From: Methylacidimicrobium sp. B4
Lineage (GTDB): Bacteria; Verrucomicrobiota; Verrucomicrobiia; Methylacidiphilales; Methylacidiphilaceae
Assembly (NCBI RefSeq): GCF_017310545.1
Contig: NZ_CP066203.1
Coordinates: forward strand, 1,922,001 to 1,986,000
Length of the DNA: 64,000 nt
Direction of reading: 5' to 3'
Each line of letters begins with the position of its first letter. The stretch's first letter is position 1. The position numbers were made by a program, and so were the translations under genes. Positions 26,724 through 62,262 of this stretch are shown piece by piece. A model generated the notes under the pieces. That model was not told the origin of the DNA, did not search any database, and saw nothing but the letters and a program-made list of their open reading frames with translations.

Positions 26724-27007
26724 TCCGGGAAAGAGTAGCCTCTTGCCCAATGGCGGGCAAGGATGCGGGGAGGCTTGCTCCACGGATAAGGCCTCGGAAA
26801 GCCCCGAGGCGCGACCGGTGACGCAACCGGAGGCGCTTCGGGCGAGGATGGGCGAGAAACTTGACTGATCCTCTGGGTTGGGCGATAAGGAAACTCCCCC
26901 TCCCAGGAGGCTCTCGAGCGAGCGGAGCGGGCGGCTCTGCCTTGAGGTCGGCTACGCGATCACGCGGAAGATGGATGAATGCAAAATCAAGAACCAACGG
27001 GAATGGG

Positions 27008-29227
27008 ATGAGGAAAACAAAGAGACGCTCACCATTGCGGACGCTTCTGGCGACAGCCCTCTCTGCGGCGCTGGCGCTGGGATGGGTTTCGGCTCAGGCG
27101 ACCGTGGTTGCGCCCCTCCAGCTGCCGGGGCATGGGAGCGTGGTCGCCGGTAGCGCCTCGACGACAGGGAACTATGGGGCTGGTGGCACCGGACACATCA
27201 TGGTCGGAGCGGCCAACACGGTCATCAACTGGGGCAATAGCGGCGGGACGATCGGGACTGGCCAGCCCGGGGGCTTCAATATCGGGGGAAGCGGGCATCT
27301 GGTCATCACCAATCCCGGCCAAGCGCTGCTCAACGTCGACGTGACGGGCAGCCCTTCGCAGATCTTGGGCATGCTCAATGCGAACGGCCCGGTCTTTGTC
27401 GCCAATGCCAATGGCATCACTGTCGGGAGTGGGGCGATGATTGTCGCTCCCGCGGGGATCAACCTGATCGCGGCAACCGTTGACGAGCAGCTCTTCGCCA
27501 GCACGGGGCAGCTGCCGATCCGCTTTGCCGCCTCTGGGCCATTGACCGTAGCCGGGAATCTCGTGGCCGCGGGAGGACCCGGGAGCTCGATCTTTCTCGC
27601 GGGCTCGGGTGCGGTGAACATCCTGCCGATCCCCAACGGGGCGGCACACTACTTCAAGCCCGGGACCAACGTGACGGTCGTCGGTGGGGTGGGCGGGACG
27701 CTCAATACGGCTACCGGCATCTTTACGCCGGCGGATGGCGCGGGAAGTGCCACCCCCTCGGCTTCCAGCCCGACGACGGTGACCCTCAACCTGGGCACCT
27801 CGGCGCACCCGTATGATCTGCGTCTCAGCGGTCCCAACGGTGCCACGCCGACGGTCGGAACGCTAGTCCTTGCCAATGGGAATATCGTCAACAACGGGGT
27901 GCTCACCAACAGCACCGGGAATGTCGTCCCGTACCTCCAGTGGACGGGAACGCTCACCAACAACGGGACGCTCCAGGCCCAGGTGGATGCCGCCGGGGTG
28001 GCCGGGCTGACCACCTTCTACGGCAACACCCCCTCGCTTCGCCCCTACGGTTCGCTTGTGAACAACGGGACGATCGCCACCAACAGCTCCGCTCCGTTGT
28101 ACATCCGCCTCCCCGGGTCGGTGACCAACAGCAGTGGTGCCACCATCTCCAACGTGGGCGGCGATGTCCGGATCGATTCGGGCTACGGCTTCGCCAATCT
28201 GGCCTCGGGAGGCATCGTGAACCATGGATCGATCGTTGCTCTGGATAATGTCACCTTGATCGCGACCAACAACACGGGGAGCGGGCTCTATCCGATGGGC
28301 GGAGTCTATAGCGACGGGTCGATTCGAATCCTGGACAGTGCGGCGCACGCGAACGCGGCGCTGACGGTCGGGAGTACGACCGGCAACGCCTTCCTGGGTG
28401 GGACCGTGACGACGCCGAACGATGCGGCCGGATTGGCGAATGTCTATCTCTTCTCCGGAGCGAAGCCGCCAGCGACGTTCACGCTCGGAACGAATCTCAA
28501 GACCAACGCTGCGCAGTTCACTGGCGGCAGCCTGACGGGTGGGGGGACGCTCACGACCAACACCCTCTTCCTCGATGACTTCGTGGGGAACGTGAACAAT
28601 GTGACCTCGCCGACCAACGATCTGGCCAACGGGTTCCACGTGGCCAACGGGTCGTCTGGGAACACAAACCTGATCGTTAGCTTGCCGACGACGAGCCAGG
28701 GGGCGATCGGGCGTCAGGTGGTGAATCTGAACGTGGCAGGGAATGCCACTCTCTTTTCCCATACCACCTCGACCTTCGTAAACGGGAGTGGTTCGACGGG
28801 AACCCTCCCGACCGAGGCGAACGTGGGCAGTAGCCTGCTCGTTCAGGCGAGCGGCAACCTGACGGTGAACCCGAGTGCATCTGGGCCTTTGAACTACGCG
28901 TTCTCCAGCGGCGCACTGGGCACTCACGGGTTCGTCTTCCCGGGTGGGATCGTGCTGATCGCGGGGAACACGCTCTCCTTGAACACGGTGGTCGACAACG
29001 GCTATGCGCCGACGGTGGGCGCGGGCCAGGGGATCTTCTTCCAGGCCCCGAAGATCATCACGACTGGGGCGCCGGTGATCACCAATGGCAACGCCTGGGT
29101 CAACTTCAGCACGCAGCCCTCGATCGTGCCGGCGATCTACGGGGTGGCCGCCGTCTCGGGCTCGACGACCAACTTCACGATCGTGCCCGATGCCTCCGCC
29201 TTCCATATCCGCCCGTACACGCCCTAA
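27008..29227 (+). CDS. TpsA-type exoprotein, filamentous haemagglutinin-like (copy 1)
   Basis: A 739-residue secreted protein starting at ATG 27008. A basic N-terminus and hydrophobic core ending in 'LGWVSAQA' form a signal peptide (about 1-29). Residues ~30-260 match the haemagglutination-activity/TPS domain: 'NTVINWGNSGGTIGTGQPGG', 'VDVTGSPSQILGMLNANGPV' and 'FVANANGITVGSGAMIVAPA', where NANG replaces the usual NPNG. The rest is a Gly/Asn/Thr/Ser-rich beta-helix with many N-x-S/T sequons (NNGT, NSSG, NNTG). It ends in 'FHIRPYTP', almost identical to its paralogue. Secretion would use the TpsB at 55661-57298. The abundance of sequons and neighbouring glycosyltransferases suggests a glycosylated surface protein; this is inference. 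Confidence 0.87.
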   Translation: MRKTKRRSPLRTLLATALSAALALGWVSAQATVVAPLQLPGHGSVVAGSASTTGNYGAGGTGHIMVGAANTVINWGNSGGTIGTGQPGGFNIGGSGHLVITNPGQALLNVDVTGSPSQILGMLNANGPVFVANANGITVGSGAMIVAPAGINLIAATVDEQLFASTGQLPIRFAASGPLTVAGNLVAAGGPGSSIFLAGSGAVNILPIPNGAAHYFKPGTNVTVVGGVGGTLNTATGIFTPADGAGSATPSASSPTTVTLNLGTSAHPYDLRLSGPNGATPTVGTLVLANGNIVNNGVLTNSTGNVVPYLQWTGTLTNNGTLQAQVDAAGVAGLTTFYGNTPSLRPYGSLVNNGTIATNSSAPLYIRLPGSVTNSSGATISNVGGDVRIDSGYGFANLASGGIVNHGSIVALDNVTLIATNNTGSGLYPMGGVYSDGSIRILDSAAHANAALTVGSTTGNAFLGGTVTTPNDAAGLANVYLFSGAKPPATFTLGTNLKTNAAQFTGGSLTGGGTLTTNTLFLDDFVGNVNNVTSPTNDLANGFHVANGSSGNTNLIVSLPTTSQGAIGRQVVNLNVAGNATLFSHTTSTFVNGSGSTGTLPTEANVGSSLLVQASGNLTVNPSASGPLNYAFSSGALGTHGFVFPGGIVLIAGNTLSLNTVVDNGYAPTVGAGQGIFFQAPKIITTGAPVITNGNAWVNFSTQPSIVPAIYGVAAVSGSTTNFTIVPDASAFHIRPYTP

Positions 29228-29259
29228 GGGTGTAGCCAAAAGGGATTGGGGATTCGGGG

Positions 29260-30875: not shown

Positions 30876-31190
30876 CCAGGGCGAGCGCGATACCGGAAAC
30901 GCCTTCCCGGGCGGGATCGCGCGCATTGCGGGGAAGACGCTGACCGGGAACACCATGGTCGACAACGGTCGGCCTCGAGCGTGGGGGCCGGCAGGGGATC
31001 TTCTTCCAGGCCCCCCCACCGTGATTCCGGCTCCGGTGATCCCCGGCGGCAATGCGTGCGTCCGCTGCAGCACGGCCCCTACGGCCCTTCCCACGATCTC
31101 CGCGGGCGATCTCTGCCGTGCACTTCTCGCCGGTCGCCTGGAGGGTCGTGACCCATCCCGCATCTTATCGCATCGGCTCCTGGGAGGCGA
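30876..31190 (+). pseudogene. 3' fragment of a third tpsA-like gene
   Basis: Directly after the IS remnant the DNA resembles the last ~310 bases of the tpsA genes: the 'FPGG-I---IAG-TLT-NT-VDNG' segment, a 'GDLLPG PP' relic of GIFFQAP, and 'APVIPGGNA' for APVITSGNAW, ending near 'YRIGSW' for YHIRPY. Frames are shifted several times and no start exists. The similarity continues weakly into the terminator flank (ggcgccggcggagcccg near 31260). This shows that at least three tpsA copies once stood in tandem, and that one was lost at or after IS insertion. Confidence 0.75.
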
Positions 31191-34133: not shown

Positions 34134-36125
34134 ATGCCTTGGGTTTCCTACGCCGATCACTTTGAAGATCTCCTCCTCCACCGGTCGCTCGAAGAGGTCT
34201 CAGGGGGATTCTACGTCGATCTCGGGCCGGCCGATCCGGTGAAGAACTCGGTCACGAAGCCCTTTTCCGAGCGGGGATGGCGAGGCGTGAACGTCGTCGC
34301 CGATCGGAGCCTCTTCGAGAGCTTTTGCGCGGCGCGACCCGGCGATCTCACTCTGCTGGCGAGGTTCGCCTCCGAGCCGGGGGGTGGGCGTTCCGAGGAG
34401 GGCCTGATCCTCGAGGGAAAGGGGGGTGCCTTCTCCGGTCTGGACGCCGTCCTGGCCGAAGCTCCGCCCGAAGCCATCCACTTCCTGATCGCAGCGAGCA
34501 GGGGATGGGGGGACCGGCTCCTTCGTCGCTTCCCCTTCGCGCTGGCCAAACCGTGGATCGTGCTCCGGAGGGGGAGCGGCTCGGCCGAGGAGCCGAAGGC
34601 TGCCGTCGACGGGTTTCTCCTTTCCCAAGGGTATGCGCTTGCGCGTTCGGACGACGGCGGCCGCTTCTACTTGGCGCGAGAGCGGTCGGAGAAGAGAGTG
34701 CGGCTGGCGGCCGACCCCGGCGCCGGCGACGATTTCCTCCCCTTCCGCTACGCGGAGGAGATCGAGGGCCTCCGTCGGGAGCGGGCGGAGCTGCTTGGCC
34801 TGACGAGGCTCCTTTCGGGAGAGAACGAGCGATTCCATCGGGCGCGAGCCGCAAACCCCCTGCGCCGGCTGGAGCGGGCGCTGCGGGGGGTCTTCCGCAG
34901 GAAGGCGGGCGGCGAAGTGGGAGCGCCGCCGATCCTTGAGGCGTCTTCCGCGGACGGAGGCGCGCCGGTTTCCCCTCCGGAAGGCGGAACGGCGGCTCCT
35001 GCGGTGGGAGCCCTGGAGGTGCATCGCCTCTCGGGGGTGGGGAGGTACGGCGACCCGATGCCTGAGAAGCCGCGGATCCTGGTCCTGCAGCTCGACCACA
35101 TCGGGGATTTCGTGACGAGGCTGCCGGCCTTCCGCCTCTTGCGCTCCCTATGGCCCGAGGCCCAAATCGACCTGATTTGTGGCCCCTGGAATCTCCCCCT
35201 GGCCAAGCAGAGCGGCTACTTTCAGCGGATCCTTCCCTTCGCGTTTTTTCCTGAGCAATCGGCCCAGTGCCGGCCGGATCCCTCCAGGGTGCGGCAGATC
35301 GGATCGGAGTTCGGGGCGGTCGCCGGAAGCCTGGGCGACTATGATCTCGCGATCGACCTGCGGATGGGAACCGAGACGAGAGGGCTCCTGGGCCTTGTCC
35401 CAGCCAAGCTTCGGGCCGGTTTTGCGGCTCCCGAGGCGGATGTCTTCCTGGACATTTCCCTGCCGGACCCCCGGGTCTTTGCGCCGGGGGAGAAGAACCG
35501 GCAGGGGCTCAATTGGGAGATTTCGGCTCTCTTGCTCGTCCGCGCGGTGGAAGCGGCCCTGATCCCGGCGGCGGCTGCCGCGAAGGCGGAGCGGCCGGGA
35601 GGACCACCGGCCCAGCGGCTGGTCGCGGTCGCGCCGGGGTCGGGAAGCACGGCCCGGAAGTGGAGCGTCCTGCACTACGCCGAGGTCTGCCGGAAGCTGA
35701 CCCAGGAGCACCGATGCTCCATCCTGCTTCTGGGCGGCGCCGGCGACCGGGAGGATGCGGATCGGATCGCGCAGGGCATCCCCTCGGAGCGCTGCCGCAA
35801 CCTGGTGGGCAAGGTCGCCCTCGCGGATCTGGCCGGATGCCTCTCCGAGGCGCGGGTGCTGGTCGGCAACAACTCGGGTGTGAGCCATATCGCGGCTTCG
35901 CTGGCTGGCATCCCGGTGGTGATCCCTTATGCGGGCACGGTCGACTTCCGGGTCTTCCATCCGGTGGGGAAAAAGGTGAGCGTGCTGCGGGTCCCCACCT
36001 CCTGCTCCCTCTGTGCTCTCTTGCGGGCGGAGGAGTGCCCTCATGCCCTGGCCTGCCTGGAGAGCATCCCCCCCGAAGCGGTGATCCGGGAAGTGCTCTT
36101 TTGGTTGGGAGAGGCGGAGGCGTAA
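34134..36125 (+). CDS. degenerate FkbM methyltransferase domain fused to a GT9 glycosyltransferase
   Basis: A 663-residue protein. Residues 1 to about 185 align with the FkbM domain of the paralogue at 52381-54441 (MPWVSYADHFEDLLL against MAWISYAENFEDVVL). But motif I is 'FYVDLGPADP' instead of FYVDVGAGDP, and the later LKIDCEGAE is replaced by 'FLIAASRGWGD', so SAM binding is probably lost. Residues ~314-655 are a GT9 (heptosyltransferase-like) domain: 'ILVLQLDHIGDFVTRLPAF', 'LVAVAPGSGSTARKWSVLHY' and 'VLVGNNSGVSHIAASLAGIP'. The transferred sugar is unknown. No strong ribosome-binding site precedes the ATG. It is the first gene of a two-gene plus-strand unit. Confidence 0.82.
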   Translation: MPWVSYADHFEDLLLHRSLEEVSGGFYVDLGPADPVKNSVTKPFSERGWRGVNVVADRSLFESFCAARPGDLTLLARFASEPGGGRSEEGLILEGKGGAFSGLDAVLAEAPPEAIHFLIAASRGWGDRLLRRFPFALAKPWIVLRRGSGSAEEPKAAVDGFLLSQGYALARSDDGGRFYLARERSEKRVRLAADPGAGDDFLPFRYAEEIEGLRRERAELLGLTRLLSGENERFHRARAANPLRRLERALRGVFRRKAGGEVGAPPILEASSADGGAPVSPPEGGTAAPAVGALEVHRLSGVGRYGDPMPEKPRILVLQLDHIGDFVTRLPAFRLLRSLWPEAQIDLICGPWNLPLAKQSGYFQRILPFAFFPEQSAQCRPDPSRVRQIGSEFGAVAGSLGDYDLAIDLRMGTETRGLLGLVPAKLRAGFAAPEADVFLDISLPDPRVFAPGEKNRQGLNWEISALLLVRAVEAALIPAAAAAKAERPGGPPAQRLVAVAPGSGSTARKWSVLHYAEVCRKLTQEHRCSILLLGGAGDREDADRIAQGIPSERCRNLVGKVALADLAGCLSEARVLVGNNSGVSHIAASLAGIPVVIPYAGTVDFRVFHPVGKKVSVLRVPTSCSLCALLRAEECPHALACLESIPPEAVIREVLFWLGEAEA

Positions 36126-36223
36126 CCCGGATGCGGCACCGCATGGAGGGAGGCGACGGCCCGGGGCCGCAGGGGGCCGGAAACGCTGGTTGGGCCGAGG
36201 TCCAGGATGCAGAGGAAAGAAGG

Positions 36224-39200
36224 ATGTCGAATCCGCCAGGGAACGCGGGCGCCGCTCGCTCCGGGCCCCGGGAATGGGCTTCGGGCGCCGACCTCCTCGG
36301 GATCCTCCCCTGGTTTCCTCTTCCCGAAGAGCTGCCGATCTTCCTGGACGAACCGTTCGAGCGCGGGCTGCACATTCCCTTTGCCTGCTGGCTGATGGCC
36401 GCGTTGCGTCCCGTCCGGCTCGTCTACGTGGGGAAAGTGAGCAGCCTCTACCTGGCATTCTGCGAGGCGGCCAAGGCCGCAGGCATGGCGACACGCGCCT
36501 GGGCCGTAGATGCGGGAGGCGGCTCGGCGGCCTCCGGGAGCGTGCTGGAGCCCGAGGCCGATGAGGAGCTGCGGCGCTTCCACGACCAGAGCTATCGCGG
36601 CTTTTCGGAAGTCCTTTCCCCGGACGAGGCCCGGGCTCCTGTGGAATTCCCTGAGGGGAGCATCGACTTGCTCTGTCTCGGCGGCTCTGGGGCATACGAA
36701 ACCGTCCGGGAGGAGTTCCGGTGGTGGCTGCCGAAGCTGAGCCCGCGGGCGGTCGTCCTGCTCCCCGGCGCAACCGATTACCGGAGCCAGTGCGGCGCGT
36801 GGCGCTTTTGGAAGGAGGTGCGCTCGGCGTATCCGTCGGCTCTCTTCCCCCACGGCCGCGGGCTGGGGGTGCTCCTGAGCGGCCCGGAGCCGCACGACAC
36901 CTTGCGCGCGCTCGCCCACCTCCGGGAAGCGCAAGCCGCACGGGTGCGCTGGTTCTTTGCCCGGCAAGGGGAGCGGTGCATGCGCGGGATCCTCGAAGGA
37001 AGGATGTGGCGCACGCTCTCCTTGGATGCGGAGGCTCTGGTCCGGAAGATTGGGGATGACCCCCTGTGGCGCCTGCTTGGCCGGAGCCGGTTGCTCTCGC
37101 GAGGCGCGACCGAAGCGCTGGGGCAGGCTTCTCTGCTTGCCGGTGAGCTGCTGAACGACAGGCTTGCGCTGGCGGAAGGAGAGCCGAAGGCGCGGGCCTT
37201 GGAAGCCTCGGTCGAGCGCTTCCTCTCCTCAAGATCCTTCCTCGGCTTTTTGCGCTTGCGACGGTGGATCCCGCTTCCCCGTGCGGACAGGCGCCGGGAG
37301 AGCGTTGCGGATGCCCGGCGGGCGTGGCAGAGGAGTGTTCTGGTGGCGCAGCGCTACCGGGAGTTCCTGCGCGCCCGCAGCCCCGAGGAGGCCCCTCGGT
37401 GGCGGGACAGCCTGGGATACCCCTTGGAGCCCGGCGTGAGCAAGGAGCGGGTGCGCGAGCGCTATCAGGAGGAGCTCGAGCGGTTCCTCGCGGGCGGCGA
37501 CCGTCTTCTTGTGCCGTCGCCGCCCGAGCCCGAGCTCTCCGTCGTGCTTGTGCTCTACAATCAGGCCGAGCTGACCTATGCCTGCCTCCGCTCCCTTGCG
37601 ATCCACCTCTGCCCCTCGGCCGAAGTGGTCGTCGTCGACAACGCCTCCTCCGATCGGACGGGGGAGCTCCTGGAGCGGATCGAGGGGGCCCGGATCTTCC
37701 GCAACCGCGAGAACCTCCATTTTCTGCGTGCGGCCAACCAGGGTGCGGCGGCCGCGCGGGGGCGGCTTCTGCTCTTTCTGAACAGCGATGCCCAGATCCT
37801 CTCCGGCACGGTCGAAGCCGCTCGGCAGACGATCGAAGGCGACAGGGGTGCGGGAGCCGTCGTCGGACGGCTGGTCAACCTCGACGGGACCCTGCAGGAA
37901 GCGGGGGCGTTCTTCCTTCGGGATGGAATTCCCTGCCTCTACGGAGCCGGAGAGAACCCGCAGCAAGGGGCATATCTCTATCGGCGGGAAACCGACTACG
38001 GCTCCGGCGCCTTCCTCCTGACGCACACCCCGCTCTTTGGGGAGATGGGGGGCTTCGACGAATGCTTCTCCCCGGCCTACTGCGAGGACTCCGACTACTG
38101 CCTGCGCCTTTGGGAGAAGGGCTGGCGGGTCCTCTACGAGCCGGAGGCGGTCGTGCTCCACTGGCTGCACGGGAGCTCCGCGTCAGGCCAGGCCCGGGAA
38201 TGGGCGGAGCGGAACCGGACGACCTTCGCCAAGCGTCACGAGCTCTTTCTTCGCGATCGGCAGCCCCATCGGCCAGGCTTCCGTCCTTCCCTGGCCTTTC
38301 CCCGCCCGAAGATCCGCCTGCTCTACATCGACGACCGGGTGCCCCGGCCGGAGCTGGGGTCGGGATTCCCCCGGTCGAATGCGGTCCTGCGGGCACTGGC
38401 GGCCTGGGGAGCGCAGGTCACCCTCTTTCCCATGTCCGGGTGCTCGGAGGAGTGGGAGGAGATCTACTGGAGCGTGCCGCGGGAGGTGGAGGTGCTCCGT
38501 GACAGGGATGCCTCCAGCCTGCAAGCCTACCTGGAAGCTCGGGGTGGCGATTCCGACTGCGTCTGGGTCTCTCGGCCTCACAACATGGCCTCTTTCCTGG
38601 AGGCCGCCCAAGGCAGGGGCTTCCGTGGGCGGGCACGCCTCGTCTACGATGCCGAAGCCCTCTTTGCGTTCCGGGAGATCCGGGAAGCGGAAATCCTGGG
38701 CGGGAAGCCGCTGCCCAAGGAGGAACGATCCGCACAGATCAGCAAGGAGATCGCCTTGGCACGGAGCGCTGACCGGGTCGTGGCGGTATCGGAGGTCGAA
38801 GCCCGCGAGTTCCAGAGGCAGGGAATTGCGGATGTACGGGTGATCGGCCATGTCCTGGAGCTTGCCCCCACCGCTTCCCCCTACGAGCAGCGCCAGGATC
38901 TGCTCATCGTTGGGGCGGTGCATGCCTTATCCAGCCCCAACGGAGACGCCTTGGTCTGGTTTGCTCGCACGGTGCTGCCCCGGATCCGGGCGGGGTTTCC
39001 CGATGCCCCACCCCGGCTCGTGGTCGTCGGCTACGGCACCGATGCTCCGGAGCTTCGGCGCCTTCTGGGCCCGGAGGTCGTAACGGCGGGGACGGTCGCC
39101 GACCTGGCTCCGTATTACGAGCGGGCCCGGCTCTTCCTCGCTCCAACGAGGTTCGCCGCGGGCATTCCGCACAAGGCGCACGAGGCGGCGGCGCGCGGGG

Positions 39201-43329: not shown

Positions 43330-43475
43330 CTGCTGGGGAGCTCTTGCTCGCGGAGCACCGCCCGTGAATCGGGCGAATCCTAAATCGAACGGCCGCGCTG
43401 GAAAAGCAGGGAATCGAGCGGATCGCAAAAGGGGGATGCCGAACACGGTTCGGCTGGGGGAGCCGAACGGGCTTC

Positions 43476-46562: not shown

Positions 46563-46691
46563 GAAGGGTTCTATACCCGGTGGGGGCAAGGGCGAACAAG
46601 GGGATTCCGGCCCATCGAGGAGAGCCAAGAAGGCCATGACTTTTCGCTTGCGGCGCCACCGAAGCCAGAGCAGCATTTTCCTCTTATCCGG

Positions 46692-52380: not shown

Positions 52381-54441
52381 TTATCGGACAACCTTCTCCG
52401 CTTCTTGCGGCCTGCCCTTCGCTCCGGCTCCCCCTTCCTGCTCCAGCCAGAAGAGCACCTCCTGGACCACGGCCTGCGGCTCGATTCCGGTCAAGCAGGC
52501 CTTGGCGTGCGGACAGTGGGTTGCATAACAGGGGGAACAGGAGATCGGAATGTGGAGCAGGCTCACCCGGTTGCCGACCGGATGGGCCATCCTCCAGTCG
52601 ACGACTCCTGAAAAAACGATCACGGTGGGAATCCCGAGTGCTGCGGCGATGTGGCCCAATCCCGAATCGTTTCCGACGAAGACCTGAGCAGAGGCGAGGA
52701 GGCTCGGGATCTCTTCCAAGGAAACCTGCCCGACCAGGTTCCGACAGCGCGAAGGGGAAAGGTTGCGGAGGAGGGCTTCGGATGCCTCGCGTTCCGCGCG
52801 GCCACCAACGAGCAGGAGGGGGCAATCGTGTTCGGTCGTCAAGAGGGTGCAGAGGCGGGAGAAATGCTCGAGTGGCCATGCCCGGAGCGGGTCTCCGCAG
52901 CCGGGAGCAACGGCGATGAGCCGGGGCATGCCCCCGACTGCGGCCGTCCCTCGCAGAAAATCCGGCAGGCAAGAGCAGGGGTCCTGGAGGGCCGCGCGAA
53001 TGGCTTCGATGAGGAGCAGTGCGGAGGAGCGACGATGGGTTGGTGCGTGTTCGTTCCCGGACATCTCTCCGTTCGGGAGTGCGATATCGAGGACGACGTC
53101 GGCCCCGGCGGCGGCAAAGCCCGCGCGAAGCTTGGCCGGGACATGGGAGAGCAGGAAGCGGGTATCGGGGTCGGTCCGCAGGTCAACGGCCAGGTCGAAC
53201 TCACCCAGCGAGCGGGTGAGCGTTGCAAGCTGCTCTCCCGCCGAGAGGTTGGGCCCCCGCCACTCTCCGGAGCGCTCGGGGAAGAAGGCGAACGGGATGA
53301 TCTGCTGGAAGAAGCCGAGCCTCTGTGCCAGGGGAACGTTCCACGGGCCGCAGAGCAGGGTAATTTCCGCATTTGGCCAGGAGCGGCGGAGCATCTCGCT
53401 GGCTGCTATCCGGTTGAGGAAGTCCCCGATGTGATCGAGCTGGAGGACCACGATCCGCCGGATCTCCTCCACGCGCCCGCGAAGTCCTTGGATTCCCGAG
53501 AGGCGGAGGACCTCGAGGGGGCCGCAGCTTGGCTCGGGCGGCGCGGGTCTCGCCTCCGTTCCGTTGGTAAAGGTCTGGATCGATCCCTCCGCCGTCTCTT
53601 CCCGGCGTGCGAAGGTCGTGCGCAGCGCCCGCTCGATTCGGCGCAGCGGCTCGCGCTCCCGTTTCCGATGCAGCCGGTCGACTTCCCGTTGGAGTTGCTC
53701 GTTATACCGCTGAAGCTGCTTGACCTGATCTCGGAGCGTGCGGAGCTCCTCTACCTGCGAATATGCCGTGAACTCGTCGAAGACGTTGGGCGGAAGAGCG
53801 AGCCGTTCCCGGAGGGCGCTTCGCTCCTTCGCCACGTAGAACCGGTTGAGGCCGTCGAAGTAGGCAAAGAGATAATCCTTGGCCAGCAGGAGAGGCTCCC
53901 ACTCCTCGTGGGAAGGTTCCTGGCTGTTCGGCTTCGTGGCTTCCACAAGGATGATCCAGGGACGAACGACCTGGAAGGCAAACCCCCGCAATGCGTCGGC
54001 TTCCGCTCCCTCGCAGTCGATCTTGAGGAAGTGGATCGTGTCGATCCGGTGCTCCTCGACGATCTCGTCGAGCGTCCGGACGACAACGCTTACGGGCTGA
54101 AAAACGGCGCCGAGTCGCTTCCGGTGCTCAAGAGCATACTCCTCGCGAACCGTGCTCAAGCCGGATCCGGAGATCTGCCAGAACGGGAGCTTCCCGCGCC
54201 GGGCTCCGGCCGCCACCGGGAGATTGATGTCGCGCGGCCTTGCGGTCGCCAGCTTTTGCCAAAAGTGAGGGTCGGGCTCGAGGTTGATCCCCCTCCACCC
54301 ATTGTCGTAGAAATGCTTGGTGACCGAGTCGGTTACCGGGTCTCCGGCCCCGACGTCAACGTAGAAGCCGAGCGGAAGGTCGGCAAGCGCCCTTCGGAGG
54401 ACGACGTCCTCGAAGTTCTCCGCGTAGGAAATCCAGGCCAT
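52381..54441 (-). CDS. FkbM methyltransferase / GT9 glycosyltransferase fusion
   Basis: A 686-residue protein starting at ATG 54441 behind gggaggagagg. Residues 1-210 are an FkbM methyltransferase with intact motifs: 'FYVDVGAGDPVTDSVTKHFY', 'GWRGINLEPDPHFWQKLA' and 'IHFLKIDCEGAEADALRGFA'. A short coiled coil ('QVEELRTLRDQVKQLQRYNE') leads to a GT9 domain from ~329: 'RIVVLQLDHIGDFLNRIAAS', 'LIAVAPGCGDPLRAWPLEHF' and 'VFVGNDSGLGHIAAALGIPT'. It is the counterpart of the protein at 34134-36125, whose methyltransferase half is damaged. It is convergent with the four-domain fusion gene, 48 bases away. Likely adds and O-methylates a sugar. Confidence 0.88.
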   Translation of the reverse strand: MAWISYAENFEDVVLRRALADLPLGFYVDVGAGDPVTDSVTKHFYDNGWRGINLEPDPHFWQKLATARPRDINLPVAAGARRGKLPFWQISGSGLSTVREEYALEHRKRLGAVFQPVSVVVRTLDEIVEEHRIDTIHFLKIDCEGAEADALRGFAFQVVRPWIILVEATKPNSQEPSHEEWEPLLLAKDYLFAYFDGLNRFYVAKERSALRERLALPPNVFDEFTAYSQVEELRTLRDQVKQLQRYNEQLQREVDRLHRKREREPLRRIERALRTTFARREETAEGSIQTFTNGTEARPAPPEPSCGPLEVLRLSGIQGLRGRVEEIRRIVVLQLDHIGDFLNRIAASEMLRRSWPNAEITLLCGPWNVPLAQRLGFFQQIIPFAFFPERSGEWRGPNLSAGEQLATLTRSLGEFDLAVDLRTDPDTRFLLSHVPAKLRAGFAAAGADVVLDIALPNGEMSGNEHAPTHRRSSALLLIEAIRAALQDPCSCLPDFLRGTAAVGGMPRLIAVAPGCGDPLRAWPLEHFSRLCTLLTTEHDCPLLLVGGRAEREASEALLRNLSPSRCRNLVGQVSLEEIPSLLASAQVFVGNDSGLGHIAAALGIPTVIVFSGVVDWRMAHPVGNRVSLLHIPISCSPCYATHCPHAKACLTGIEPQAVVQEVLFWLEQEGGAGAKGRPQEAEKVVR

Positions 54442-54670
54442 CCTCTCCTCCCGACTAATGGGCCCGGATCAGCATGGCGGAAGGGAGTGCACGGCCTGGT
54501 TGTGCATCGTCTGCACGCAGTGTCCGAAACAACGCATCTTCGGTCGCAGTTCGCTCCACACCGCGGGGGAAGCAGCCGGGAACCTGGGAAGTTCGTACGC
54601 TTTCCCGTGGAAAAAACAAGCTCATTTCCCCCGCAACACCGCAACCGCCGTCTCACCATCGGGTGGCGCG

Positions 54671-55489
54671 CTACGGCAACTGCGTCACGCTCTTCGAACG
54701 AGCGACCGGTTGCGCTCTTCGGACGGGAAGGGAGGCGGCCTGGGGGGAGGAGCGGAGCTGGGCGCCGACGCGGGTGATGTTCTGAAGGACCGTGGGGTTG
54801 TTCGGCTGGAGGAGGAAGGCCTTGCTGTACGCCTGCAGCGCCTCCCGGCGGCGGCCGAGCTTCTCGCAAGCGACTCCCAGGTTGTTCCACGCCTCGACAT
54901 TGCCGGGCTCCAGTGCGAGCGCCTTCCGGTAGGCCGTGACCGCTTCCGGGAAACGGTTGAGCTCGGCGGAAACGACGCCGAGGTTGAACCAGGCGATGCC
55001 GCTTGGTGCCAAGCGGCAGATCTTTTCAAATGCCGGGAGCGCCTGGGCGGGGTGGTTGAGATGCTCTTCTTCGGTCCCGAGAGCGAACCAGGCGGCCGGA
55101 TCGGTCGGGCTCAGCTTCACGGAGCGCCGGTAGGCCGCGAGGGCACGCTTGCGATATCCGGCGGCGGCGTAGGCACGGCCGAGCCGCAGCCAGGCATCGC
55201 CTCTGCGGCTCTCGATCGAGGCCGCCTTGCGGAGAGGCGGGATGGCCTCCGTGGGCCTGCCGGCGAGAAGGAGGGCTTCGCCCAGCCGACGCCAGCCTTG
55301 CGCCGAGCGTGGGGTCGCTCGCGCCTCCTCACGGAGCAGCGCGAGCTTCTGCTCGAGGGCACGGTTTGCGCTGGAGGGGGCCGGGGAGGGGGAGCCCGAA
55401 CTCCGCTCGAGGGGGAGCAGGGGAGCGAAGAGGGCCAGAAGCAGCGGCAGGCTCCGCCGGTAGGCGGGGGCCAAGAGGCGGCGGTCCAT
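54671..55489 (-). CDS. TPR-repeat protein, probably exported
   Basis: A 272-residue protein starting at ATG 55489. The N-terminus ('RRSLPLLLALFAPLLPLERS') looks like a signal peptide or membrane anchor. From about residue 45 onward there are five to six tetratricopeptide repeats, such as 'AQGWRRLGEALLLAGRPTEA', 'GDAWLRLGRAYAAAGYRKRA' and 'VEAWNNLGVACEKLGRRREA'. The C-terminal ~35 residues are low complexity. TPR proteins assemble partners; beside the TpsB gene it might help secretion or glycan assembly, but this is only positional. It is divergent from tpsB, with 171 bases between. Confidence 0.85.
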   Translation of the reverse strand: MDRRLLAPAYRRSLPLLLALFAPLLPLERSSGSPSPAPSSANRALEQKLALLREEARATPRSAQGWRRLGEALLLAGRPTEAIPPLRKAASIESRRGDAWLRLGRAYAAAGYRKRALAAYRRSVKLSPTDPAAWFALGTEEEHLNHPAQALPAFEKICRLAPSGIAWFNLGVVSAELNRFPEAVTAYRKALALEPGNVEAWNNLGVACEKLGRRREALQAYSKAFLLQPNNPTVLQNITRVGAQLRSSPQAASLPVRRAQPVARSKSVTQLP

Positions 55490-55660
55490 GTTCTCCAGAG
55501 TATGCGAGCAGCGGGTGCCCCTGCCAGAAAGAAAGGAGTCGCGGGCCCGGGAAGCGGGGGGGCATCCCGAGTGGCTCGATTCCCAAAAGGGGAAGCGATC
55601 CAAGGGGTTTTTGGCTTGCCAGGAAGCACGGGAAGCGATGATCTTTAAGCACTTTTTCTT

Positions 55661-57298
55661 ATGATCTTGCTGCTGCCGCTCCTCCTCGCGCTCCTGGAGG
55701 AGCCGACGGCCTTCTATTCCGCCCCGGAGAAGCAGGAGGTCGTCCCCTATGATCAGGCCTCCCTGGCGGCAAAGCCGGTCGTGGTGGAAAGTGGGGGGAT
55801 CCGCTACGTCGTGACCGGGAATACGCTCCTCTCCGAGGGAAAGATCGCCGACACGCTTCGGGGTGCCAAGGGTCCGGAGGATGCGGTGAGCCGGCTCAAA
55901 GCGGTCTACCAAAGGGCGGGATACTTCTTGGTGACGATCCGGGCGGTCGGTAGGGAGAAGCGGGTCGAGCTCGAGGTGATCGAAGGAAAGATCACGGAGG
56001 CCCGGGTCGTTCCCTCCCTGCGCTGGTTCTATGGAGGGCTGACCAACCGCCCCTCGGTGAAGACCAGCGATGTGATCCGGCGCACGGCCAATGCGGAAGC
56101 CTATGCCGCCCGGCAGCAGGAGCGGCCGAAGGTGAACTTCGAGCCCGGTACCGATTTTGCGAGCTCGGTGATGGAGGTGGAGACCCGGCCGATCGAAAGC
56201 TTTGCTCCGAACCCGCTCAACCAGGCGAACCCGTGGAATGCTTCGGTGGGCTTCGGAAATTACGGGAACCGTTTCTCCGCCCGCTACATGAGCGATGCGG
56301 CGGTCGCCTATCGTCCGGGATATGGCTTGGAGCTCACCGGCGGATTCACCAACGGCTGGGACGGCCTCAATCCGTACACCGAGGGCGGGATGTTCCAGAT
56401 GGAGAACGGCGGGCTTTCCTGGGCGACCCCGTGGGGAGTCTACGGTGTCACCTTCGCGAACATGCAGTCGGCCTTTGGGGAGGTAACAGCGCCGCTCTAC
56501 CCCGAGGTCGCGATGCAGAGCTGGCAGATCTACGGGCAGCAGACGGTCTACGCGAGCGAAAGCTTCCGCTGGACGATGAACGAGCGACTCACCTCGATGA
56601 ACTTCATTGAGGATGTCTTCCAGGGTGCGATCCGGCTCCTCTCCCAGGATTACGGGACGGCCCAGCTCGGCACCACGCTGAGCCAGAGCTTCCGGACCCT
56701 GGGGCTTCCCGCGCAGGTCACCGGAACCGTCTACGGCGTTCGGGGAACGCAGCTCGGGGCCTTCTCCGGCGTGCAAGGCGCGCCGCTGGAGGGACCAGGC
56801 GTGCCGACGGCCAACTTCACCTACTACCGGGGCAACTTCAGCTATGCGCAGACGCTGCCCGAGGGGATGCAGCTGGTGCTGACGGGCTATGGGCAGATCT
56901 CGGAAAATTCGCTGCCGATCATGGAGTATTTTGTCCTGGGCGGGATGGGGAACCTGGCCGCGTGGTATCCGGGTGTCCTCTACGGAGATACGGGCTACAT
57001 CACCCGCGCCGCCCTTTCCGCCCCCCCCGTCGAGGCGTGGGGATTCCGGATCGCGGGGCAATTCTTCGCAGAGACCGGCGGGTCCCGCTTCACCTATACG
57101 CCCGGTCCCGGCCCGGCTTGGCACTACCTGACCGACGTCGGGCTCGGGCTCGACATGGTCCACCGCTATGGAACGACGATCAGCGCCATGGCGGCCCTGC
57201 CGCTGGACGCTTCGATGATCGGACCCACGGACAACCCGCACGGCTACTTTGCGGGCGGACGGGTAGCGGTGCTTTTTGTCTTGCGGCAGAACTTTTAG
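55661..57298 (+). CDS. TpsB-type outer-membrane transporter (ShlB/FhaC family)
   Basis: A 545-residue Omp85-superfamily pore for two-partner secretion. A short hydrophobic N-terminus ('MILLLPLLLALLEEPTAFYS') acts as signal peptide. Residues ~45-115 form a POTRA domain ('GIRYVVTGNTLLSEGKIADT', 'LKAVYQRAGYFLVTIRAV', 'ELEVIEGKI'), followed by a second, shorter POTRA-like part. From ~180 to the end it is a beta-barrel, closing with 'VAVLFVLRQNF'; the terminal Phe is typical of barrel proteins. It probably exports the two TpsA proteins 22-28 kb upstream. It leads an operon with a PPIase and a lipoprotein. A nine-codon frame (ATG 55638) overlaps its start as ATGA. Confidence 0.86.
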   Translation: MILLLPLLLALLEEPTAFYSAPEKQEVVPYDQASLAAKPVVVESGGIRYVVTGNTLLSEGKIADTLRGAKGPEDAVSRLKAVYQRAGYFLVTIRAVGREKRVELEVIEGKITEARVVPSLRWFYGGLTNRPSVKTSDVIRRTANAEAYAARQQERPKVNFEPGTDFASSVMEVETRPIESFAPNPLNQANPWNASVGFGNYGNRFSARYMSDAAVAYRPGYGLELTGGFTNGWDGLNPYTEGGMFQMENGGLSWATPWGVYGVTFANMQSAFGEVTAPLYPEVAMQSWQIYGQQTVYASESFRWTMNERLTSMNFIEDVFQGAIRLLSQDYGTAQLGTTLSQSFRTLGLPAQVTGTVYGVRGTQLGAFSGVQGAPLEGPGVPTANFTYYRGNFSYAQTLPEGMQLVLTGYGQISENSLPIMEYFVLGGMGNLAAWYPGVLYGDTGYITRAALSAPPVEAWGFRIAGQFFAETGGSRFTYTPGPGPAWHYLTDVGLGLDMVHRYGTTISAMAALPLDASMIGPTDNPHGYFAGGRVAVLFVLRQNF

Positions 57299-57316: not shown

Positions 57317-58204
57317 ATGGCGAGCCGTGTGACGATCTCTGGGAAGGGGAGAATGGTTTCGCAGGGGCGAAGCCGCGGGCGCATTCGTGTCCTGCTCCTG
57401 GTTCTGCTGAGCGCGTCGGGCTTGGCCCTTGCGGCGCGAGCCCAATCGAGCGATCCGGTCGTCGCCTCCGTCAACGGGGTCGAGATCCGGCAGTCGGAGG
57501 TGAGGAAGGCGTTGTCGGGTGCGGGTATCGCGAACCCGACCCCCGAAGCCGAGCGCAGCGCCATCAATGCGCTGATCCAGCAGGAGCTTCTCGTTCAGGA
57601 GGCTTATAAATCGGAGCTCGAGAAGTCGGCGGAGGTGAAGGCGGCGGTGGCCGAGGCCACGCGAAAGATTCTGGCGAACGCAGCACTCCAGCAGCAGCTG
57701 GGGCGGAGGAAGCTCGCTGACGAGGAGTTGCGCCGGCGTTATGAGCGCGCGATCGCGACGCTTCCCCGGCGGGAATATCGCCTGCGCCACATTGTGACGG
57801 AGACCCGGAGCGAGGCGGCCGTGGTGTTGGACCGGCTGCAGAAGGGGGTCAACTTTTCGATTCTGGCCCGCGGTTCCCTCGACAAGGCGACCGCCGATCG
57901 AGGCGGAGAGGTCGGATGGCAGAGTGCCCAAACCCTTCCGACCTCGGCACTCGCCTTGGTCGAGAAGCTCCAGCTCGGGCAGATCGGGGGTCCCATCCTC
58001 TCGGGGGCCGGCTGGGAGGTCATCCAGCTCCTGGAATTGCGTCCGGTGAAGGTGCCGAGCTTTGCCGAGGCCAAGCCCCAGCTTCAGCAGCAGCTCCAGC
58101 AGGAGACGGCGCAGCAGCTCGTGCAGCAGCTCGCGGCTGGCGCGCAGATCGAGGCATTCCTGGCGCCGCCTCCCGGGGAGCCCGTTGCGGCAACCGCTCA
58201 CTGA
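57317..58204 (+). CDS. SurA/PpiC-type periplasmic peptidyl-prolyl isomerase
   Basis: A 295-residue protein starting at ATG 57317 behind ggagggg, 18 bases after tpsB. A signal peptide ends near 'SGLALAARAQ'. Residues ~45-150 are the SurA-like chaperone helix region ('PVVASVNGVEIRQSEVRKAL' is the typical N-terminal SurA strand). Residues ~150-240 are a parvulin domain ('YRLRHIVTETRSEAAVVLDR', 'DRGGEVGWQSAQTLPTSALA' and 'GGPILSGAGWEVIQLLE'). A Gln-rich helix follows. Position in the tpsB operon suggests it keeps the unfolded TpsA passengers or the barrel competent in the periplasm. Confidence 0.88.
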   Translation: MASRVTISGKGRMVSQGRSRGRIRVLLLVLLSASGLALAARAQSSDPVVASVNGVEIRQSEVRKALSGAGIANPTPEAERSAINALIQQELLVQEAYKSELEKSAEVKAAVAEATRKILANAALQQQLGRRKLADEELRRRYERAIATLPRREYRLRHIVTETRSEAAVVLDRLQKGVNFSILARGSLDKATADRGGEVGWQSAQTLPTSALALVEKLQLGQIGGPILSGAGWEVIQLLELRPVKVPSFAEAKPQLQQQLQQETAQQLVQQLAAGAQIEAFLAPPPGEPVAATAH

Positions 58205-58210: not shown

Positions 58211-58651
58211 GTGGCGGATCCAGCGCAGGCCAGCGGTGGGGGAAGATGGCTTCGCGGGGGGGCTGCGGGGCTGCTTGCGATCCTGCTCTGCGTAGCTGGC
58301 TGCGCCCATCAGGATGCGGTACAGGTCCGGCATCTGACGACCGCCCGGTATCTTCCCTCCCGTTACGTTCAGGTCTACCGGAAGGCGCCCGAGGGCCCGT
58401 ATGAGAAGATCGCGGTGCTCGAAGCGAGCGGCCAGCCGGAAACCCCGAAGAGCCAGCTCCTGGGATCGATCCTGGAGAAGGCGCGGGAGCTGGGTGCGGA
58501 GGCGGTGATCGTGGAGGACAAGAGCCAGCCGATCGGCAATCCCTTGGTCATGAATCCGACCGGAGGAATGTACACGGTCAATCCCGGGATGCAGATGATC
58601 CCCCGTCTTCGGGCCACGGCGATCCGGTTTGCGACGGAACCCGCTTCCTGA
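58211..58651 (+). CDS. predicted lipoprotein
   Basis: A 146-residue protein with a GTG start seven bases after the PPIase stop, with gaggga upstream. The signal sequence 'GLLAILLCVAGCAHQ' has a lipobox (VAGC), giving a lipid-anchored Cys at about residue 31. The mature part ('RYLPSRYVQVYRKAPEGPYE', 'LLGSILEKARELGAEAVIVE') resembles the small YbjQ/DUF4156-like envelope lipoproteins in which a strand-helix-strand fold ends in 'GAEAVIV'. The function is unknown. It is the third gene of the tpsB operon. Confidence 0.8.
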   Translation: MADPAQASGGGRWLRGGAAGLLAILLCVAGCAHQDAVQVRHLTTARYLPSRYVQVYRKAPEGPYEKIAVLEASGQPETPKSQLLGSILEKARELGAEAVIVEDKSQPIGNPLVMNPTGGMYTVNPGMQMIPRLRATAIRFATEPAS

Positions 58652-58711: not shown

Positions 58712-59746
58712 CTATCGGGATGGGGAATCGCCAGAGGCGCAACCGGCCCGGGGAGGGAAGACCCCCTTCCGCGCGGTTCGCAAGGCCCGCTCCAACGACC
58801 GAAGGAGACGACGGACTCGGCACGCCCGGCGGAATCCCAGGAAGCGGACAAGCCAGCGGACGTGGGGCTCCGCCGCTTCCACAAGCGCCCGTTCGCTCCA
58901 CAGGTCCAGCGAATGCGCCTCTTGGGAGAGCGGTTCCACAAGCTCCGGGGCGAGCCGGTCGAGCACCCGGAGGATCCGGGCATATTCTCCCTGGGCCGCC
59001 GCCTGGCGCGGTCGGGTCCATTCGCCCAGAAGTTGCAGCTCCCGGGTGGCGTCCTGGACCATCTGAGCGCGCCAGCGGAGGGCTTCGGGGATGTTCGAGG
59101 AGGTGAGGCTCTCGAGGTGGCAGACCCGGTAGACGGCACCGGGGGTGGGGGTATAGCGGAAGCGCAAGCCCGCTCGGATGGCCCGCCAGTAGATCTGATA
59201 ATCGTCGTAGTAGTCGGTGGGAAGGTTCTTCCAGCCGCCCAGGGCGAGAAGCTTCGCCCGGCGCCAGAGGAGGGCGCCGTTTTGGGGAAACTGCGAGGAG
59301 AGCCAGGTGCGGGGAAGATCCTGGGGATCGTCGATCGGTTGGAGAAGGCGGGATGCGACACGTCCCTGGCTCCACCGCTCGAGGAGGTAGGGGGAAAAGA
59401 GGACGTCCGCATCGGCCAGGCTTCCGGCCTCGGCGATCTGGGTGGCGATCTTTTCTGGCAAGAGATAGTCGTCGTGATCGAGCCACTGGATCCACTCCCC
59501 CGAGGCCTCCTGGAGGAGCTCCTGGCGGGCGAGGCTGCTCCGGCCGGTCCGGGCTTGGAGGAGCCGGATGCGGTCCCCGAAGGCGGCGATTCGGTCCGGG
59601 GTCCCATCGCTGGAGCCGTCGTCGAGGACGAGGATCTCCGTCTGGGGCCCGCTTTGGGCCCGGGCGCTCTCGATCGCCGGGACGATCCAGGGCCCCGCGT
59701 TGTAGGCGGGGATGGCGATCGTCACGAGGGGGGAGGGGGGGGTCAT
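58712..59746 (-). CDS. GT2 family glycosyltransferase
   Basis: A 344-residue cytoplasmic GT-A enzyme starting at ATG 59746. It shows the GT2 signature 'LVTIAIPAYNAGPWIVPAIE', 'EILVLDDGSSDGTPDRIAAF', and the D-x-D-containing 'GEWIQWLDHDDYLLPEKIAT'. Later it has 'WLSSQFPQNGALLWRRAKLL' and 'DYQIYWRAIRAGLRFRYTPT'. The last ~100 residues are basic and helical. It is divergent from the triple-GT2 gene, and its first 100 residues resemble the N-terminal part of that protein. Convergent with the lipoprotein gene, 60 bases apart. Confidence 0.88.
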   Translation of the reverse strand: MTPPSPLVTIAIPAYNAGPWIVPAIESARAQSGPQTEILVLDDGSSDGTPDRIAAFGDRIRLLQARTGRSSLARQELLQEASGEWIQWLDHDDYLLPEKIATQIAEAGSLADADVLFSPYLLERWSQGRVASRLLQPIDDPQDLPRTWLSSQFPQNGALLWRRAKLLALGGWKNLPTDYYDDYQIYWRAIRAGLRFRYTPTPGAVYRVCHLESLTSSNIPEALRWRAQMVQDATRELQLLGEWTRPRQAAAQGEYARILRVLDRLAPELVEPLSQEAHSLDLWSERALVEAAEPHVRWLVRFLGFRRACRVRRLLRSLERALRTARKGVFPPRAGCASGDSPSR

Positions 59747-59817
59747 CCAAGGAGCCGTTCGGGCGGATGGAAAAGGTTAGCGCCGCGAACCAGATTCCGG
59801 CAATAACTCCTTCCAGC

Positions 59818-62262
59818 ATGGAGCTCGTCTCGATCGCCATCCTCTCCCCGGCCAACGGGGAGGAAGCCGGAAGGCTGATCGAGGAAGCCCGGAGCCAGAG
59901 CTGGGGGAAGAAGGAGATCCTGGTCGTTGATGCTCCGGAGGGGCTCCTCCCACGGGCTCGGGGGGAGTGGATCCAGTGGCTGCGGGAGGGAGAGCGGCTC
60001 TCTCCCACCAAGATTGAGGAGCAGCTTGCCCAGGCGGGGAAGCTCCCCCGAGGGGATCTGCTCGCCTCCCCCTATCGGCTGGGGGGGGGAGAGGGCGCTC
60101 TGGCTCTTGATCCCCGGAGGGAGCCGCTGAGCTACGTGGCGCGCTTGGGGAGGGCCTTCCCCTTTGTCGGGCCTCTTCTCTGGTCACGGGCAGCGCTCCG
60201 CGCCTTCCTCCGTCAGAAGCAGGCGCCTCCTTCGAGGATGAGGATTGGGCTGGGCGAGCGCCCGGGTTGTGACTGCCCGGGAGTCGAAAGGGAGCCGACA
60301 CGGGCCGAATGGAGCCGGGTCTTGGCGTGGGCGCTCGCTCTTGCTGCGGCCGCGCAGGAGGAGGGAGCGGGGAGGAGACTTTCTCCGGAAGGGGAGCGTC
60401 TGCTTTCTCTGCTGGAGGAGGTCGATGCATCCCTGGTGCCAAAGCCAAGGAACCTCCTGGCGCAGGCCAGGCACCAGGCAAACGCGACGAGGGAAGGGTT
60501 GCGCCAGATGGAGGCCGGCTTTCGACGGGGAAGGAGGCAGCTCCTCCACCGGATCGGCCTCCGAAAGCGGCCGGGCACGGCGGGCCGAGCCGGGCCGGAG
60601 GCGGAGGCCTACGCCGCCTGGCTTGCCGCCTATCAAGCGCTGGACGAGGCGGATCGGGAGGAGATTCGAAAGGAGATCGGCCGATTCCCGAGGAAGCCGC
60701 TGCTCTCGGTCCTCCTGCCGGTCTTCAATACCCCGGAGAGGTGGCTCCAGCGGGCGATCGACTCGATCCGGGAGCAGCTCTACCCCCACTGGGAGCTTTG
60801 TCTCGCCGATGACGGGTCGACTCTCCCCCATATCCGTCCCTTGCTCGAGCGAAACCGGGAAGGGGATCCGCGGATCCGGGTGGTCTTTCGGGAAGAGTCC
60901 GGAGGGATCGCTGCCGCCTCGAATAGCGCGCTTGCCCTCGCGCGGGGAGAATGGATCGTGCTGGTCGATCACGATGATGAGCTGCCCGAGGAGGCGTTTT
61001 TCCTGGTCGCCCGCGAGATCCTGCGTGATCCCGAGATTCGGCTCCTCTATTCGGACGAGGACAAGATCGATGAGGCGGGCCGCCCCTTCCACCCCTGCTT
61101 CAAGCCCGATTTTTCCTACGACCTTCTGCTTTCGGAAAACTGCATCAACCATCTCGGTGTCTACCAGGCAGAGCTTTTCCATTCCCTGGGAGGCTTTCGG
61201 AGCGGCTTCGACGGGAGCCAGGACTACGACTTGGCGCTTCGTTTCGTGGAAAAGCTCGAGGCCCGGCAGATCCGCCACATTCCCCGGGTGCTCTACCACT
61301 GGCGGGCGATCGAGACATCAGGAGCGGCTCGGGAGGAGGCGAAGCCCTACGCCTATGAGGCAGCCCGAAAGGCGATCCGGGACCATCTCGAACGGCTAGG
61401 AGAGTCCGCGGAGGTGCTCTCGACCCGCATTCCCTGGGGGCATCGGGTGCGGAGGAGGGTTCCGGGAGATCTTTCCGTCAGCCTTCTTCTTGGGTCGGGA
61501 AGCGATGAGGAGGGGCTGTGGAAGGCGATCGGGGCGCTTCGGGGCGAGGCCGAGCCGTCGAAATCCGAGCTGCTGGTGATCGGGAGGTCGAAGCACGGAC
61601 TGCCTCTGCCTAAAGGCGTCCGCGTTCTCGACCCGCCGGAGCTGACCGGTCCCGCTCTCTGGAGCTGGGCCGCGCGGCAGGCGAGGGGAGAGGTCCTGGT
61701 CTTCCTCGCGGCTCCGGTCGAGCCTGCGGAGGGCGGCTGGCTTGCGGAGCTGGCCAGTCATGCGGTGAGGCCGGAGGTGGGAGCCGTCGGGGCGCGGATC
61801 CTGGCTCCCGATGGAAGGGTGGAGGAAGCGGGAGTCGTAATTGGGCTGGAGGGGAGTGCGGGAGCCGCGTTCCGGGGAGGGAATGGGGAGTCGATCGGCT
61901 ATTTCGGGCAATCGGTGCTGATCCGGAACCCGTCGGCGGTGAGCGCGGCCTGCCTGGCGACGCGCAGGGCGCTCTTCGCGGAGTGCGGAGGCTTCGATCC
62001 GGGCTATCGCCAGGGTCTTTGGGACATCGACTACTGCCTGCGGCTCCGGCAGAAGGGCTACCGGGTCGTCTTTACGCCCTATGCGGAGCTCGTGCGGAGG
62101 GAGGAGCCCCCGGAAGTCCTTGCGGAGGACCGGGAGCGCTTCCGGGAGAGGTGGAGGGAGTGGATCGAGCGCGATCCGGCCTACAATCCCAACCTGAGCT
62201 TGGAGAGCGGGGGCTACGGCCTGGCCTGGCCGCCGCGGATCCGGCGGCCCTGGAGGCAGTGA
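59818..62262 (+). CDS. multi-domain GT2 glycosyltransferase (degenerate GT2 + two GT2-like domains)
   Basis: An 814-residue protein from ATG 59818; an in-frame ATG at 59767 is possible and neither has a clear ribosome-binding site. Residues 1-~100 look like a worn GT2 start related to the neighbouring gene ('LVSIAILSPANGEEAGRLIE', 'GEWIQWLREGERLSPTKIEE'), but the D-x-D is gone. Residues ~292-520 are an intact GT2 domain: 'LLSVLLPVFNTPERWLQRAI', 'WELCLADDGSTLPHIRPLLE', 'GEWIVLVDHDDELPEEAFFL' and 'LLYSDEDKIDEAGRPFHPCF'. Residues ~551-790 are a second GT2-like half ('GEVLVFLAAPVEPAEGGWLA', 'GLWDIDYCLRLRQKGYRVVF'). This two-domain layout is common in O-antigen and S-layer glycan polymerising enzymes. 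Confidence 0.86.
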   Translation: MELVSIAILSPANGEEAGRLIEEARSQSWGKKEILVVDAPEGLLPRARGEWIQWLREGERLSPTKIEEQLAQAGKLPRGDLLASPYRLGGGEGALALDPRREPLSYVARLGRAFPFVGPLLWSRAALRAFLRQKQAPPSRMRIGLGERPGCDCPGVEREPTRAEWSRVLAWALALAAAAQEEGAGRRLSPEGERLLSLLEEVDASLVPKPRNLLAQARHQANATREGLRQMEAGFRRGRRQLLHRIGLRKRPGTAGRAGPEAEAYAAWLAAYQALDEADREEIRKEIGRFPRKPLLSVLLPVFNTPERWLQRAIDSIREQLYPHWELCLADDGSTLPHIRPLLERNREGDPRIRVVFREESGGIAAASNSALALARGEWIVLVDHDDELPEEAFFLVAREILRDPEIRLLYSDEDKIDEAGRPFHPCFKPDFSYDLLLSENCINHLGVYQAELFHSLGGFRSGFDGSQDYDLALRFVEKLEARQIRHIPRVLYHWRAIETSGAAREEAKPYAYEAARKAIRDHLERLGESAEVLSTRIPWGHRVRRRVPGDLSVSLLLGSGSDEEGLWKAIGALRGEAEPSKSELLVIGRSKHGLPLPKGVRVLDPPELTGPALWSWAARQARGEVLVFLAAPVEPAEGGWLAELASHAVRPEVGAVGARILAPDGRVEEAGVVIGLEGSAGAAFRGGNGESIGYFGQSVLIRNPSAVSAACLATRRALFAECGGFDPGYRQGLWDIDYCLRLRQKGYRVVFTPYAELVRREEPPEVLAEDRERFRERWREWIERDPAYNPNLSLESGGYGLAWPPRIRRPWRQ

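Follow-up and report, generated by a model that had tools for sequence, protein, structure and literature searches.

The 64,000-nucleotide stretch of DNA analysed here (the window) belongs to the closed 2.37 Mb genome of a Methylacidimicrobium, one of the acidophilic verrucomicrobial methanotrophs, and carries a two-partner secretion (TPS) system whose accessory block is of a new kind and whose transporter is divergent. About 21 kb of enzyme fusions separate two TPS-type beta-helical exoproteins from a TpsB pore and the PpiC foldase and lipoprotein encoded after it (Table 1). This anatomy bears out an initial annotation of the same DNA, which had placed two TpsA-like exoproteins at one end, the pore, a PpiC/SurA-type foldase and the lipoprotein at the other, GT2, GT4, GT8-like and GT9 domains fused to methyl- and sulfotransferases in between, and two further GT2 genes just outside. 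We read the locus as a TPS system for a surface protein, served by its own block of glycan-modifying enzymes in the cytosol, a reading to which we assign a probability of about 0.5. Functional coupling of the locus has a fair probability, and direct modification of TpsA is plausible, if unproven. New here are the replacement of the VRGY/F motif by LAAW or LSAW in all TpsB proteins of the clade despite purifying selection, an almost uncharged TpsA, and an open reading frame upstream of tpsB that lies antisense to a conserved secreted TPR gene. A literature search yielded no paper on TPS in verrucomicrobial methanotrophs and no description of the locus, and a search for TPS joined with sulfotransferases returned only unrelated Xanthomonas genome surveys.

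Table 1. Features of the TPS locus. Positions are those of the window, except in the last row, where each position follows its own sequence label.
Position	Strand	Feature	Evidence
27008..29227	+	TpsA1: Sec signal and right-handed beta-helix exoprotein with N-terminal TPS domain	TIGR01901 2e-7; AF2 model, HxuA/EtpA/HMW1 matches
30895..31174	+	Remnant (C-terminal fragment) of a third tandem tpsA	tblastn with TpsA1/TpsA2, 47-54% identity, 70 aa
31652..33877	+	TpsA2, about 60% identical to TpsA1	TIGR01901 1.2e-8
34134..36125	+	GT9 with degenerate FkbM-like N-terminus (by inspection)	PF01075 1.7e-18; homologs in G004, G005
36131..39454	+	Methyltransferase 24 - GT2 - GT4 fusion	Profile matches
39511..42504	-	GT8-like (DxD) N-terminus, middle region, weak GT4-like C-terminus	PF00534 0.0018; DxD motif YLDADIWV (by inspection)
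42601..43524	-	Methyltransferase	PF13489 1.5e-6; coding potential: true start possibly 43290
43476..45740	-	GT4-GT2 fusion	Profile matches
45873..46637	-	Methyltransferase	PF08242 2.2e-7; related methyltransferase adjoins TPS genes in Methylacidiphilum
46692..47867	+	Sulfotransferase, PAPS loop GMHRCGTS	PF13469 1e-13; motif
48022..52332	+	Sulfotransferase - MT24 - GT2 - GT4 fusion, 1436 aa	Profile matches
52381..54441	-	FkbM methyltransferase - GT9 fusion	PF05050 3.2e-28, PF01075 2.2e-21
54671..55489	-	Secreted TPR protein	TPR families down to 3.5e-35
55661..57298	+	TpsB-like outer-membrane translocator without the L6 VRGY/F arginine	PF03865 (ShlB) 3.5e-7; alignments
57317..58204	+	Periplasmic PpiC/SurA-type peptidyl-prolyl isomerase	PF13145 (rotamase) 2.8e-13
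58211..58651	+	Small lipoprotein	Signal and CVAGC lipobox; adjoins PpiC in both genera
58712..59746	-	GT2 gene	PF00535 1.2e-21
59818..62262	+	GT2-type gene, 814 aa	PF00535 4.3e-28
L101 1323-6931; L101 9615-11087; L085 18382-20000 with L051 1-1456		Methylacidiphilum proteins with an FDxxYYL-type repeat	

Both TpsA proteins of the window match TIGR01901 above its cut-off; PF05860 gave no match to either, in a search that was silent even in control genomes and is thus uninformative. The AF2 model of TpsA predicts a long beta-helix (pLDDT 83, pTM 0.84), and Foldseek matched its N-terminal part to TPS domains, those of HxuA, EtpA and HMW1, at E 1e-6 to 1e-4. VIA comparison gave Z scores of 24.0 for HxuA, 23.8 for EtpA and 22.8 for HMW1, within a range of 18-24 that includes the FHA TPS domain, and of 13 and below for unrelated beta-helices. 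The NPNG turn motif, described as highly conserved in TPS domains (PMC5422565), is absent, its aligned place being taken by NANG in Methylacidimicrobium and NGSG in Methylacidiphilum; HxuA and HMW1 are members of the second TPS family, which has no NPNL hairpin (PMC5422565). Mature TpsA of both genera contains only about 3-6% K+R+D+E and 18-26% S+T, with almost no cysteine. The passengers had initially been described as rich in N-x-S/T sequons, which did not hold once composition was taken into account (15 against 13.0 expected, p 0.29, and 19 against 14.9, p 0.13). Pooling 20 related TpsA proteins gave 311 sequons against 261 +/- 14 expected (1.19-fold), with the mirror pattern S/T-x-N also raised (287). 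Sequon enrichment was accordingly rejected as support for glycosylation of the window TpsA. A third tpsA spans the contig origin, and decayed pieces of the gene for the GT8-like protein (g39) follow secondary tpsA copies elsewhere in this genome (G000) and in one relative (G001).

The transporter matches the ShlB model with 30.5 bits (cut-off 22.7) and aligns locally with ordinary TpsB of the same order. Proteins of the Omp85 superfamily carry VRGY/F, a motif described as essential, at the tip of loop L6, where its arginine pairs with an aspartate in F/GxDxG (PMC5422565). Ordinary TpsB of the order read GTVRGY or DTVRGF at this place; all eight aligned proteins of the clade, from Methylacidimicrobium and Methylacidiphilum, read GNLAAWYP or GNLSAWYP with no gap. 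The partner motif (FxExG) keeps an acidic residue, as FAETG or YTEFG in most members. Because its dN/dS of 0.07-0.14 indicates strong purifying selection, this TpsB is very likely functional despite the missing L6 arginine, as judged from aligned sequences. The clade thus shares with FhaC, HMW1B and CdiB the ShlB/FhaC barrel match, a putative POTRA-like N-terminus and an acidic residue in the partner motif, but differs from them in LAAW or LSAW at L6 in all members examined. It was confined to Methylacidimicrobium and Methylacidiphilum among 195 sampled genomes of the phylum. The AF2 model is poor (pLDDT 38.8), with one POTRA-like unit at 40-108 and about ten strands, where the family would have two POTRA domains and a barrel of 16 strands, and with no visible L6 loop; a PDB sequence search with the TpsB profile returned nothing meaningful, and no relatives were found among viral contigs. 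With a VRGY/F-less clade under such selection, what L6 does in Omp85 transporters can be tested directly; M. fumariolicum SolV is stated to have no genetic tools (PMC10542722). In the clade an invariant arginine (R476) also comes after the partner motif.

Nine soluble enzyme genes lie between tpsA2 and tpsB, the PpiC gene begins 18 bases 3' of tpsB, the lipoprotein gene 6 bases 3' of the PpiC gene, and the two outer GT2 genes lie 3' of the lipoprotein gene. Most glycosyltransferase and sulfotransferase genes of the window are not co-directional with tpsA or tpsB. An open reading frame at 54458-55648(+) was rejected as a gene; it runs antisense to the secreted TPR gene, the minus frame of which is conserved in seven genomes and which also occurs in the Methylacidiphilum loci. 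A GDP-mannose gene, manC (23938-25695), adjoins the locus and an ABC exporter (22045-23865) lies outside the enzyme block; both were left out of the system, neither having been seen near the Methylacidiphilum loci. The left end of the window (4186-9878) is occupied by mobile elements, namely a reverse transcriptase gene, a DDE transposase and a TnpB/Cas12f-like gene.

The block comprises GT9, MT24-GT2-GT4, GT4-GT2, methyltransferase, sulfotransferase, ST-MT24-GT2-GT4 and FkbM-GT9 proteins. Transmembrane prediction found no clear segment in any of them, the FkbM-GT9 protein having a single borderline stretch, and profile matches identified no flippase (Wzx), polymerase (Wzy), ligase or initiating phosphoglycosyltransferase family among the block proteins. 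As the initial annotation had noted for GT41, PF13844, the GT41 model used, was absent from this genome and six relatives (seven genomes) in a search that detected control families. A PDB sequence search with the GT8-like protein and the sulfotransferase gave no match; the former has homologs in G001, G002, G004 and G005.

The same set of genes was followed through related genomes (G001 onward), among them Verrucomicrobia bacterium LP2A, Methylacidimicrobium cyclopophantes 3B, M. tartarophylax 4A and Methylacidiphilum sp. Yel. Within Methylacidimicrobium the order g39-g43-g45-sulfotransferase-ST/MT/GT2/GT4-FkbM/GT9-TPR-TpsB-PpiC-LP-GT2 is largely kept, at about 45-90% identity over several species; the assembly breaks into separate contigs in G002 and G003, and some species have lost genes. 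The glycan block accompanies the TPR and TpsB genes in G001, G004, G005 and G006, as it does on one short contig in G003; in G002 it occupies a contig of its own. Methylacidiphilum shows the order TPR-PpiC-LP-TpsB-TpsA-TpsA followed by a double methyltransferase, an ST...GT4 fusion, DUF707, GT2 and MT24; the two genera share the functional classes of enzyme and differ in how these are fused. Sulfotransferases (PF13469) fall inside the locus in two cases out of two in G000, two of three in G001 and one of one in each of G003, G004, G005, G006, G007, G010 and G011; the single match of G002 lies in the same block, and G008, which lacks TpsB, has two, both elsewhere. The binomial probability of this concentration is 2e-4 for G000 and 5e-4 for G001, values to be taken as a guide only as the boundaries were set after seeing the genes; the same holds for the GT2 genes, 5 of 19 of which fall within the locus, a region that makes up 1.5% of the genome (p 7e-6, boundaries set post hoc). 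Since sulfotransferases occur almost only in the locus, functional coupling is supported. The expectation of the initial annotation that glycan genes would go with tpsA and tpsB thus stood in two genera, sulfotransferase genes included, with exceptions in three genomes; the refuting case that it had named, glycan genes in related genomes without TpsA/TpsB, is seen only in part. In G005 the block and an intact TpsB persist beside a TpsA cut down to its N-terminal half. G007 has no TpsB, its TpsA being accompanied by GT2 genes and a sulfotransferase-GT4 fusion, and G004 carries its tpsA genes on one contig, TpsB and the block on another. Because of these exceptions, a strict dependence between TpsA, TpsB and the block is weakened.

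Since the block has no clear transmembrane segment, flippase, polymerase or ligase, the simplest reading is a small methylated, sulfated glycan made in the cytosol, on TpsA or another carrier. HMW1 is glycosylated in the cytoplasm (PMC5422565). TpsA would be synthesised in the cytosol, where soluble GT2, GT4, GT9 and GT8-like enzymes would assemble a short sugar chain, to be methylated by FkbM and other methyltransferases and sulfated by PAPS-dependent sulfotransferases. Sec would export the modified TpsA, the co-encoded PpiC, TPR protein and lipoprotein would hold it, and TpsB would move it across the outer membrane, where it would fold into a beta-helix and be surface-anchored or shed. At pH about 1-5 carboxylates would be protonated and sulfate esters still ionised, so that a hydrated anionic coat could form on an almost uncharged TpsA; sulfate as the source of charge at low pH is a suggestion. 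The analysis itself shows the gene set, the predicted TpsA fold, the conserved linkage, the clustering of sulfotransferases and the selection on TpsB; which molecule accepts the glycan, what the chain is, in which order the steps run and what the system does are as we infer them. The linkage in two genera, the concentration of sulfotransferase and GT2 genes in the locus, the GT4-GT2 gene of a decayed second locus in G010, the g39 remnants beside other tpsA copies, the soluble character of the block, the low dN/dS of TpsB and the nearest solved TPS domains, which include EtpA and HMW1, count in favour of a glycan-modified TpsA; the sequon counts of the window, the three exceptional genomes, the character of the GT9 domains (see below) and gene orientation count against it. 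The full proposal, a sulfated, methylated oligosaccharide made in the cytosol on a TPS passenger and exported by a TpsB for which the L6 arginine is dispensable, is put forward only tentatively. Its import, a third-partner module of new chemical type (a sulfated TPS glycoprotein) together with a transporter that departs naturally from the lid-lock rule of Omp85 proteins, is to be regarded with like reserve. The locus suggests a sulfated-glycan coat on a secreted protein, or on the cell surface around TpsA; if so, sulfation would join the known modifications of TPS adhesins and offer a plausible way to keep the surface charged at pH 1-3.

Alternatively, the block could make a sulfated, methylated surface polysaccharide or an outer-core extension of LPS, which an unmodified TpsA would bind or organise, the coupling being functional and not covalent. 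The two GT9 domains are nearest to LPS heptosyltransferases, manC adjoins the locus, the number and content of enzymes vary between species, and G005 keeps the block beside its truncated TpsA, all of which would fit such a product. However, flippase, polymerase, initiating phosphoglycosyltransferase and ligase are absent among the block proteins, and neither manC nor the exporter was seen close to the Methylacidiphilum loci; we regard this alternative as possible and somewhat doubtful. It is unlikely that TPS and glycan genes merely share a tolerant chromosomal region, a variable surface-gene island without mutual action. The birth and death of tpsA copies with their remnants and truncations, the mobile elements in the left part of the window and the unlinked tpsA of G004 might suggest such an island. 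Against it stand the recurrence of the same functional classes beside TPS genes in two genera whose fusions differ, the near-restriction of sulfotransferases to the locus and a gene order that persists across species.

For a TPS system with a dedicated cytosolic glycan-modification block, the nearest functional analogues would be HMW1C-type and flagellin glycosylation. The glycosylated TPS adhesins HMW1A/B/C of Haemophilus and EtpA/B/C of ETEC likewise combine a TPS beta-helix exoprotein and TpsB with linked cytosolic glycan enzymes. Unlike them, the present locus has no GT41 that we could find, many fused glycosyl-, methyl- and sulfotransferase domains, sequons that are not enriched, co-encoded PpiC, TPR and lipoprotein genes, and a TpsB without VRGY/F. 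The heptosylated autotransporter systems Aah/AIDA-I and TibC/TibA resemble it in that a GT-B heptosyltransferase-like GT9 domain adjoins a secreted beta-helix protein, but matches to TIGR04414 (Aah/TibC) are weak and partial here, at about 20-32 bits against a cut-off of 200 (best in the locus, 22.8), and the TPS locus of Methylacidiphilum gave no GT9 match. Flagellin glycosylation islands and serine-rich-repeat adhesin loci encode batteries of soluble glycosyltransferase and methyltransferase fusions together with a protein decorated in the cytosol; the batteries are alike, whereas export route and carrier fold differ. The classical loci of either kind are not known to include a sulfotransferase.

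Further tps genes were seen in the relatives. G010 has a second, decayed TPS locus (L086 6045-18391), in which a GT4-GT2 gene and several tpsA copies accompany lipoprotein, PpiC and tpsB remnants. Reading frames are split in tpsB and several tpsA of G011 (L053 8718-20930) and in tpsB of G006 at a C7 run (L047 ~10528); decay, phase variation or faulty assembly may be the cause, and the short G/C runs present at two of the sites are too little to claim phase variation. G008 encodes two proteins of about 400 aa with a short TPS-like match (L090 9240-10487, L091 6429-7601). Sulfotransferase, glycosyltransferase and methyltransferase proteins of Methylacidiphilum carry a repeat that has no Pfam match and reads FDxxYYLxxNPDVxxxGxNPLxHFxxxGWKExRNPHP.
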